Positions 53,330 to 56,152 of a DNA stretch of 64,000 nucleotides are shown one piece after another (position 1 is the stretch's first letter; every line of letters starts with the position of its first letter). The stretch is from a bacterium (GTDB lineage Bacteria > Patescibacteriota > Gracilibacteria > Absconditabacterales > Absconditicoccaceae), in contig JAHDFY010000002.1 in assembly GCA_020627925.1 (NCBI GenBank), forward strand, positions 1-64,000, given 5' to 3'. The notes below the pieces were generated by a model. The model was given only the letters and a program-made list of their open reading frames with translations, had not been told where the DNA came from and searched no databases. The position numbers and the translations under genes were made by a program.

Positions 53330-53507
53330 GATAGTATCTATATATAATTGCTAAATAATTATATATTTTTATTGTCTTATTTGCAAAATATAGAAAGGTT
53401 TTTTGCAGGTATTCATTGTTGCTGGCTACTATATTCAAACTATTTTTTATTGCAATACTTTGAAAAACAAATAAATTCTGACTATATTTACGTTTTGATT
53501 TTTGTCT

Positions 53508-54446
53508 ATGTTTGTCCATCTGCACGGTCACAGTACGTATTCTATGTTAGAGGGTATCTGATCTATAAAAGAAATAATTGCTAGAATACAAGAGTTGGGA
53601 ATGAATACTGTTGCTTTGACTGATTATTTTGGGCTTTATGGCATTGTTGATTTTTTTCGTACCGCTTCTGATAATGAGGTAAAACCTATTTTTGGTTTAG
53701 AAATACATTATGTTGATAAAATCCAATGATATATTCCTGATGAGAGCGATGGAACAATTGTTTTGCTTGCTGAGTCTATGTTGGGTTATAGTAACTTGCT
53801 CAAATTAATGTCTTTTGCTTTTGATAATCTCATTGACGAAAAGCCAACTATTGATAAAGCAAAGCTAGAAGAATTACAAGAAGGTATTTTTTGCTTAATT
53901 GGAGGAACTTTGTCATGATATGGAAAAAAAGTATCACAGTGAATCTCAGAAGCAGAGCTCAATGAATACTTATATAATTTTTTACATATTTTTTGAAAAA
54001 AACATCTCGTAATGGAAGTCGTTGCTCAAGATTACTCTGATGAACCTTCTTATCAAAAAATTAATGAATGAGTTTTGGAATTTGCACAAAAAGAATGATT
54101 AATTGCTGTTGCAACATCAAATTTTCATTATCTTAGAAAGGAAGATAAAGAGGCATATGAGTTAGCGCTAGCAATTAAAGATGGTTACAAAATTTTTGAT
54201 GAGCAAAGAAGACATATTAAATGACACTACCATATTTATTCAGAGCAAGAAGTTCGTCAGACACTTACCAATAATTGAATTGATGCTACAATAGTGGATG
54301 AACTTATCAATAACACATGATTGATTGCAGATCAATGCGAGGTAAAACTAGAACTATATCAATCTCTTTTTCCCAAATATGAAAACCCAGACTATATTAC
54401 CTCTCTCTATCAACAATATGGTGATGAGTTAGTAGATAAAATGTAA
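53508..54446 (+). CDS. stand-alone PHP-domain protein like DnaE N-terminus
   Basis: A 312-residue protein that starts FVHLHGHSTYSMLEG (residues 2-16), the PHP-domain opening of bacterial DNA polymerase III alpha, with the first His pair. NTVALTDYFGLYGIVDFF, VKPIFGLEIHYV, LLAESMLGYSNLLKLMS and ATSNFHYLRKEDKEAYELAL also match DnaE PHP motifs 2-9. The chain ends with TAA where DnaE would continue into the palm domain. Metal ligands are partly kept: the second HxH reads TDYFGLYG, losing a His (DHGxxxG in DnaE). It may be a cut-down DnaE relic or a separate PHP protein; the polymerase part is not in the window. Confidence 0.75.
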
Positions 54447-54534
54447 CAGTATTTTAAATTTTTGTGTATTGCTTTTTTGTTGTTAATATATATAATATAT
54501 TCTATGTAATTATAGAATTGTATATTAATTGATA

Positions 54535-54559
54535 AAAATAAAATAAAATAAAATAAAAT
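54535..54559 (+). repeat. (AAAAT)5 tandem repeat
   Basis: Five exact AAAAT units directly in front of the beta-barrel-like gene, ending three bases before its ATG. Such short repeats change length by slippage. Here they occupy the ribosome-binding-site region. Confidence 0.9.
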
Positions 54560-54562
54560 GAA

Positions 54563-55088
54563 ATGAAAATAATAACAACAACTTTGCTCCTATTCGTTTT
54601 TTCTTTTTTCGTAGTAAAAAATTCTTATTCACAGCATGATATTTGTTTTGCAGGGGGATTAAATTTAGGAGTTAACTCTAATGTTGGAATTGATCTCGGG
54701 CTGTTTGCACAATCTGGTTTCAAATTTTCAAATTCGCCAAATGTTATAATTGGCTTTATTGAATCTGAGATTAATTTGAGTAGTAGTTTTTTCTCGACAA
54801 AACTATTTGCGGTACCCTATGTAAAATTGGGAATTGGGCTGATGGGAAAAGAAAAATTAAATGATGTAAACTTTTTTTTTTTCTGGAGGTTATGTCTCCT
54901 TATTAAAAGGTTTCGTTGATTTAACTTCAAAACCCTTTACTGGAGTTTTGGTTGATACAGGTATTTATGCAAAGCTTGGAATGGCTTTATCACGAAGGTG
55001 TTCTGTTTATGCTTCATATTCATTTGATCTTGCATCAAATTATGGGCTACTTTGTTTTGGAATTACTTGGGGAGTGTCATTTTTTTAA
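54563..55088 (+). pseudogene. outer-membrane beta-barrel-like protein, frameshifted at T11
   Basis: The frame starts with a signal peptide of the type used in Gram-negative bacteria (residues 1-23, ending SYSQ). A barrel-like pattern of alternating residues follows with aromatic ends (INLSSSFFSTKLFAVPYVKL, GLGLMG). A run of 11 T at 54872-54882 throws it out of frame after residue 103. Dropping one T (or adding two) restores SGGYVSLLKGFVDLTSKPF and onward to SFF and TAA at 55086, a 174-residue protein. All its glycines are GGN; no TGA appears in either restored half, unlike neighbouring genes. This suggests recent transfer from a standard-code bacterium. Whether it is dead or phase-variable cannot be told from one sequence. 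Confidence 0.75.
54872..54882 (+). repeat. T11 homopolymer tract in coding sequence
   Basis: Eleven T directly after AAC. Restoring the frame needs 10 or 13. This is the kind of tract that slips during replication and can switch a surface protein on or off; it could also be a sequencing error. Confidence 0.85.
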
Positions 55089-55095
55089 GAAAACT

Positions 55096-55125
55096 AAAAA
55101 GAAAAGCGAATTTGCTTTTCTTTTT
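55096..55125. terminator. terminator after beta-barrel-like gene
   Basis: AAAAAGAAAAGC pairs with GCTTTTCTTTTT around GAATTT. The T-rich arm serves the plus strand; the minus-strand methylase gene ends two bases further on. Confidence 0.75.
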
Positions 55126-55126
55126 C

Positions 55127-56152
55127 TTATAGCATTATTTTGATTATTTGTCTTCCTACTTTTTGTCATTTTCTGCTGTATACTTCAGGGCATGTTTCAT
55201 AAGCTATTCCTTTCTCATCTAAATAATGTTCAATAAAACGAGGAACAATGTCATCATGTTGTAAATGAACTGGCGCAGTTATTACTATAATACTTCCTTT
55301 GGCAAAAAAGTTGATTGAATGTCTCAAAAAATCTTCATAGAGTGCATAAATATCTTTTTGAATATTGTAGCTTTCCCTTGCAGTAGTTCTGTGGTTAATT
55401 ATTGGTCATAGCCATCATTCGGTGACTATACAATTGCTGTTTTTGAGCATTTTTTTGTTGAATGGATTGGTGACGTCATGTTTGATAAATAGAATTTTTT
55501 TATCTGATTTGCTTTGATGTTCATCTCGCCATTTCTTGTTTAGTTTTGCCTGTGTAATGTTTTTATCTGATCCAAAGGTATCATATCCTAGTGCATTAGC
55601 GAGAAAAGAAGTAGTTCCAAATCATACAAATGGATCATAGATTGTAGGCTCTTGTGTGCTTTTTTTGCGATACTCCCCTACTGCAATGTTTAGTAGTGTG
55701 TGTGTTAGCTTTGTTGGCATCATTCCAATTTTCATTCCACGACTAGGTTTGTCAAAGTCGATGGTTTCATAGAGAGGAATATTTTGGTAATGCATTACTA
55801 ATCATAACTGATCTTTACCAAGAGCAAGTATTTCATCTCATTTTTGTTTGAGCTCTTTGTCGCTTTTTCTTGGTTCAATTATTTTGTATCTTTTGTAATA
55901 TCATTCTTTTTTCAGTGTTTGAGCGAGTCGTTTTTGATCTGTTCATAAAATTGATTTTTTGCTCATTTTGTCTATTTCTTCAATCGTAATGATGCGTCAT
56001 ATTTTAATGAGTGAACCAACTTGTAATTGTTTGATGTCGTGGGGATAATCGAAAAAAAATGTCTGTCAAGAAAGATTGATATTTGTTGCGCCTAATGATT
56101 GTAACTCAAATGCTGCAATTTTTTTATGGTTTCCGCTAATTCAAAAATACAT
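55127..56152 (-). CDS. Trm11-like RNA/DNA methyltransferase
   Basis: A 341-residue SAM-dependent methylase. SAM motif I is in IYDPFVGFGTTSFLANALG (near residue 190). ATGFGSDKN-like FGSDKNITQAKLN holds the ribose-binding acid. The catalytic motif IV position reads VTEGWLGPIINHR instead of NPPYG/DPPYG. The N-terminal half resembles a THUMP-like RNA-binding part (KIAAFELQSLGATNINLSGQ). Together this is the Trm11/TRMT10-m2G10 type of tRNA guanine methylase, with the altered motif IV common in CPR relatives as far as I recall. Target assignment is inference. Confidence 0.75.

Follow-up and report, generated by a model that had tools for sequence, protein, structure and literature searches.

A frame-broken, TGA-free barrel-like gene and a class of exported genes without TGA in a bacterium that reads TGA as glycine

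The window studied here, a 64,000-nucleotide stretch from a member of the Absconditicoccaceae (Gracilibacteria) that reads TGA as glycine (code 25), carries a gene for an exported barrel-like protein that has no TGA among its glycine codons and loses its frame by one base within a tract of eleven T. Given its codon content, leader, export signal, single-gene layout and position among native genes, it very probably belongs to a class of TGA-free exported genes of Bacteroidota style, although the T11 frameshift deprives it of the intact frame that defines the other members. We tentatively propose that this class is kept readable in the standard code for translation by a host and that the window gene belongs to it with its frame broken.

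Results

The layout of the gene and its surroundings is given in Table 1. Codon log-odds trained on the genome itself mark the frame opened by the ATG as coding ahead of the T11 tract (+17.5, against -48 and -84 for the other frames) and the frame shifted by one base as coding after it (+12.6, against -12 and -16); frame 1 past the tract gives a foreign-looking tail. An earlier note on this DNA, made from its letters, had claimed that T11 puts the gene one base out of frame and that an (AAAAT)5 repeat lies in its translation-start region. Both claims are borne out, the change of coding frame falling on the tract and the repeat being the sole run of at least four AAAAT units across the 1.27 Mb genome. 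T11 is itself one of just four sites genome-wide with a run of at least 11 A or T, the other three being one intergenic site and two inside intact genes (a MurB-like gene, with an A11, and a 515-aa gene). Because T11 shifts the frame, the copy in the window as assembled cannot make the full barrel and is either off or decaying. That the tracts, the frame shift, the TGA-free glycines and the barrel pattern are real is practically certain.

Table 1. Positions of the barrel-like gene, its tracts, its signals and its neighbours in the window.
Feature	Positions	Strand	Remarks
Stand-alone PHP gene (DnaE-type N-terminal part), native	53502-54446	+	10 TGA codons read as Gly
Putative promoter	54469-54496	+	TTGCTT (54469-54474), 16 bp, TATAAT (54491-54496); sequence reading, weak evidence
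(AAAAT)5 repeat	54535-54559	+	within A-rich leader, immediately 5' of the start codon
Barrel ORF, part 1	54563-54882	+	frame 1; ATG at 54563, signal peptide MKIITTTLLLFVFSFFVVKNSYSQ, first strands
T11 tract	54872-54882	+	one-base frame shift of the barrel gene; coding frame switches there
Barrel ORF, part 2	54879-55088	+	shifted frame; ends ...GITWGVSFF, then TAA at 55086-55088
Terminator	55096-55125	.	12-bp stem, common to the barrel gene and the convergent gene; called on the minus strand
Native code-25 gene	55127-56152	-	DPFxGxGTT methyltransferase-like motif; 11 TGA codons read as Gly

The putative promoter has a perfect -10 element and a -35 element that matches at three of six positions, which is under the threshold of the promoter scan. 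The terminator is near-palindromic and can thus serve both genes.

The two tracts, each the rarest of its kind in the genome, lie within 350 bp of one another, as would be expected of a phase-variable surface gene in which slippage at (AAAAT)5 and T11 switches strength and frame and of which the assembly caught the off state. Most native genes with A9-A11 tracts are intact long ORFs, so that the assembly seems sound at homopolymers, a point that favours phase variation and speaks against an assembly error in which the true tract would hold 10 T (or the insert would be chimeric) and the gene would be intact. Even though homopolymers of 11 are error-prone whatever the technology, the in-frame A9-A11 genes elsewhere make such an error very unlikely in our view, and a chimera is hard to square with the many similar single genes embedded among code-25 genes on other contigs. 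Phase variation of the window gene we also judge unlikely, since such tracts occur in no other member of the class and slippage also follows from lost constraint. Homopolymers of at least 9 are found once in 110 kb of class genes versus 67 times in 987 kb of native genes, which makes T11 peculiar to the window gene; phase variation throughout the class is unsupported, the class being poor in long homopolymers.

Read through the tract, the protein has 174 aa and 19 glycines, none encoded by TGA, just as the earlier description of a glycine-rich gene without TGA-Gly had it. At the genome mean of 29.5% TGA the nominal probability of 0/19 is 0.0013; TGA is also absent from about 3% of the sampled native genes with at least 12 glycines. 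The exported, barrel-like pattern reported before is equally clear: the alternating hydrophobicity of the mature part lies above that of all 376 sampled proteins of the genome, 7-10 alternating segments follow the signal peptide depending on the threshold, a higher number per residue than in any of those proteins, and the 9 strands counted at the middle threshold were reached by none of 2,000 shuffles. A signal peptide, about eight alternating strands and a terminal aromatic residue are the general marks of outer-membrane beta-barrels, and the protein has all of them. Single-sequence structure predictions of its two halves were uninformative (pLDDT 36 and 57).

The search for nearest homologues of the repaired 174-residue protein that had been suggested earlier was run, and no homologue was detectable. 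The OMP_b-brl_2 profile (PF13568) did not match the read-through protein at E<=10, Pfam and NCBIfam gave no match even at loose thresholds, and nothing credible was found in phages, plasmids, viral and genome contigs, PDB, Pfam, NCBIfam or PHROGs. There was likewise no barrel homologue among 99 related genomes of other genera, nor in 396 Bacteroidota genomes, where the sensitivity of the search is low for a short barrel. A weak match in one genome (G086, E 0.005) was rejected, as it runs through TAG/TAA stops. The C-terminal sorting domain of the type IX secretion system (T9SS) is absent from the barrel.

As for the neighbours, the upstream PHP gene had been taken for truncated, a view that we drop: in the same-family (code-25) genomes searched the PHP gene as a rule stands alone, with a length of about 310 aa, and most standard-code members of the taxonomic class have the PHP part within ORFs of about 1,150-1,300 aa. 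The PHP gene of the code-25 family is, by this comparison, part of a putative split DnaE. The methyltransferase-like gene on the other side gave no match in a Pfam search. Its orthologue in a related genome (G007) also lies near the PHP gene, with a different gene, aldo/keto-reductase-like by eye, between the two, which indicates that the site is variable. Across the whole genome a Shine-Dalgarno-like sequence is nearly absent upstream of native ATG starts (7/185).

A list of TGA-free genes was drawn up from 815 kb, some two thirds of the genome, sampled as stretches. It includes well-known conserved genes (L11, NDK, SodA and similar) and, apart from the window gene, about 17 intact exported Bacteroidota-like genes without in-frame TGA, mostly single. 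These have Bacteroidota-style signal peptides or lipoboxes, most of them lie singly between TGA-rich code-25 genes, and they comprise T9SS-tailed adhesins, lipoproteins and barrels. Such genes are found in about 20 code-25 genera. T9SS tails are present on five genes of the genome itself, and a family search gave matches in 36 of the 99 relatives, single-contig genomes included. One T9SS-tailed example is a 1,459-aa protein (L096:7869-12248; G000 C5 ~223868-228247) with six SprB repeats, of the gliding adhesin type, and a T9SS tail, in which none of 139 glycines is encoded by TGA; another, a TGA-free protein of 973 aa (L040:10816-13737), is M23-like by similarity and passes the curated cut-off for the sorting tail. 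A TGA-free M23-type peptidase with a lipobox was also seen (L075:15849-16802), and it is possible that these two peptidases are host-wall enzymes. A further exported protein of 1,850 aa (L073:7770-13322) has an RHS-repeat match and 164 glycines without TGA.

All plasmid matches of the T9SS protein are to Bacteroidota. A relative of the SprB/T9SS protein, 28% identical, is encoded in a 642-kb uncultured phage record (LR756502.1, 515494-518805). Carriage of the class by phages is unsupported: viral contigs contain no relative, and one weak match came from a large uncultured phage.

Across 22 genomes, the T9SS-tailed genes and their cassette partners contain 3 TGA among 2,622 Gly codons, versus 2,928 among 8,878 in all other genes of the same loci. 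None of the three is inside a coding region: one is 5' of the true start, and the other two close the sorting tail precisely, as the stop codon of a standard-code gene would (G006 has a third stop of this sort). In G034, TGA makes up 85% of native Gly codons, against 0/76 in the T9SS gene. Six T9SS-tailed ORFs do have TGA at native rates (three in G036, namely L136, L139 and L141, and one each in G034, L137, G008, L138, and G010, L140), from which it follows that the tail itself does not forbid TGA; one T9SS-tailed ORF in G009 has 3 TGA in 30 Gly. The T9SS-tailed genes are of two kinds with little between them, and the second kind is fully recoded.

The age of the class can be gauged from three cassettes, each found at the same chromosomal site across species between conserved native genes: cassette A (three genes in G012, G022 and G045, one in G043), cassette B (G022, G040 and G047) and cassette C (G026, G035 and G018). 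Their proteins have diverged to 33-67% identity, and identical residues share a codon in just 31-53% of cases (synonymous identity 0.31-0.53), so that synonymous sites are saturated. TGA occurs in none of their aligned Gly pairs, whereas the flanking native orthologues have it in about a fifth to more than half of the pairs in most comparisons, and it is freely used in a native exported gene next to cassette B. The best matches of cassette protein A2 in the 396 Bacteroidota genomes are partial, at 28-47% identity and within giant adhesins, while the copies in the carriers match one another full-length at 45-67%; repeated import at the same sites therefore appears unlikely. To judge from these alignments, the class is in part inherited at conserved sites.

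These cassettes bear on the reading of the window gene as a recent import, taken up as DNA from a Bacteroidota prey or host, too young to have gained TGA, useless to a cell that lacks an outer membrane and decaying through slippage at T11. Such an import would suit the 0 TGA, the broken frame, the lack of a relative in the 99 genomes and the lack of Omp85, and G006 and G012 still have three T9SS-tailed genes whose natural terminus is a TGA. As the relatives compared are of other genera, it fits the window gene itself equally well. Recent import alone cannot, on the other hand, explain a class with saturated, TGA-free orthologous cassettes, which sits at conserved sites with resident-like codon usage. 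Its members, moreover, are nearly all exported and hence not a random sample of host genes, their leader type is unlike that of three Bacteroidota plasmids, and the barrel has no homologue in the 396 Bacteroidota genomes, albeit by a search of low sensitivity. We regard a recent import as possible, if doubtful.

Apart from glycine, the codon usage of the class matches that of the resident bulk (r 0.955-0.975), and its GC3 tracks the resident genome (r=0.67). A further possible cause of TGA avoidance is very high expression of the class in the carrier, combined with a slow TGA-reading tRNA-Gly. Highly expressed native genes have about 1% TGA as well, and canonical promoters and A-rich leaders are features of the class. 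Its codon usage, however, correlates with the bulk at r=0.975 and with highly expressed genes at 0.879, and the shares of AGA (0.33 in the class vs 0.76 in highly expressed genes) and ATA (0.32 vs 0.09) differ widely, making this explanation distinctly unlikely.

The leader of the window gene is, with 67.5% A, the top one among 208 hydrophobic-start genes and lies at the 99.6th percentile when set against native leaders, and (AAAAT)5 is a local expansion of it. When hydrophobic-start genes of the genome were picked regardless of TGA, 14 of the 26 with an A-rich leader proved TGA-free, compared with 5 of 166 others (P=1e-10). In three Bacteroidota plasmids the leaders have less A than in the class, and plain inheritance of A-rich leaders from Bacteroidota is thus unsupported. 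The Bacteroidota-type promoter (TAnnTTTG) was looked for and is not enriched in the class; the canonical TTGAC/TAnnnT promoter is (27% vs 6-9%), which suggests that the class is transcribed in the carrier.

Omp85/BamA (PF01103) is absent from the genome and all 99 relatives, with 7 of 14 control genomes positive. The remark in the earlier note that CPR bacteria are not expected to have an outer membrane agrees with this result, and an outer-membrane barrel has nowhere to go in such a cell. That note had explained the gene as a foreign, switchable or decaying import; what stands is a Bacteroidota-style, TGA-free exported barrel with a broken frame, and what falls is the idea of a single recently gained gene, as the gene shares its traits with a dispersed class.

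Discussion

The reassigned codon should accumulate in every old gene of a recoded bacterium, and an old class that stays free of TGA would record its reader. Old genes would most simply be kept free of TGA if they were read by a ribosome that stops at UGA, and a Bacteroidota host is what the products of the class suggest, built as they are for Bam, lipoprotein export and T9SS. In the explanation that we prefer, purifying selection would keep the class readable with UGA as a stop, and the genes or their mRNAs would be translated by the standard-code ribosomes of that host, whose Bam, lipoprotein route and T9SS would place the products, the carrier itself having no Omp85. The parts of this explanation differ in strength. 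Selection for standard-code readability of the class is, on the codon evidence, somewhat probable; expression of the class by a host is rather doubtful, and so is the wider picture of a parasite that would remodel the envelope of its Bacteroidota host through standard-code genes expressed in or on the host and unusable by itself. Against reading by a host, canonical promoters suggest transcription in the carrier, and delivery to the host is left unexplained; against the proposal as a whole stand the six T9SS-tailed ORFs with native TGA rates and the less A-rich leaders of the three Bacteroidota plasmids.

Should the host be the reader, cross-species gene expression by episymbiotic bacteria could for the first time be tested from sequence, and uncultured lineages would have their likely hosts named: Bacteroidota with T9SS. 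Should the explanation differ, a strong constraint on code change would still be exposed, one undescribed in the literature searched. That literature yielded nothing linking Gracilibacteria or the Candidate Phyla Radiation with T9SS, and the papers containing both 'Patescibacteria' and 'type IX secretion' appear, from their titles and word counts, to hold passing mentions only.

Among known systems, the small outer-membrane barrels of Bacteroidota (e.g. PF13568) resemble the window protein in signal peptide, about eight alternating strands and C-terminal Phe; the window barrel differs in having no Pfam or NCBIfam match and a broken frame. The T9SS cargo of Bacteroidota bears the same tail as the class (Por_Secre_tail, PF18962/TIGR04183, above the curated cut-off), and the likeness extends to SprB repeats (PF13573), PKD and Ig-like domains and Bacteroidota-like signal peptides. 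The class carriers, however, lack Omp85 and hence any known way to use the tail, and the barrel itself is tail-less. Agrobacterium T-DNA consists of genes carried in one organism and built for expression by another. The analogy with the class is one of logic only, the proposed host here being bacterial. Closer in kind are the TGA-avoiding 'bilingual' phages of code-25 CPR bacteria, phages that may have hosts of both kinds (Liu et al. 2023, PMC10746230). Like the class, they have no in-frame TGA, use non-TGA stops and are proposed to be readable in recoded and standard-code hosts; they are phage genomes, whereas the class consists of scattered chromosomal genes with Bacteroidota export signals at fixed sites. 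By this comparison, those phages may be taken as the nearest precedent for a class of genes kept readable in the standard code.
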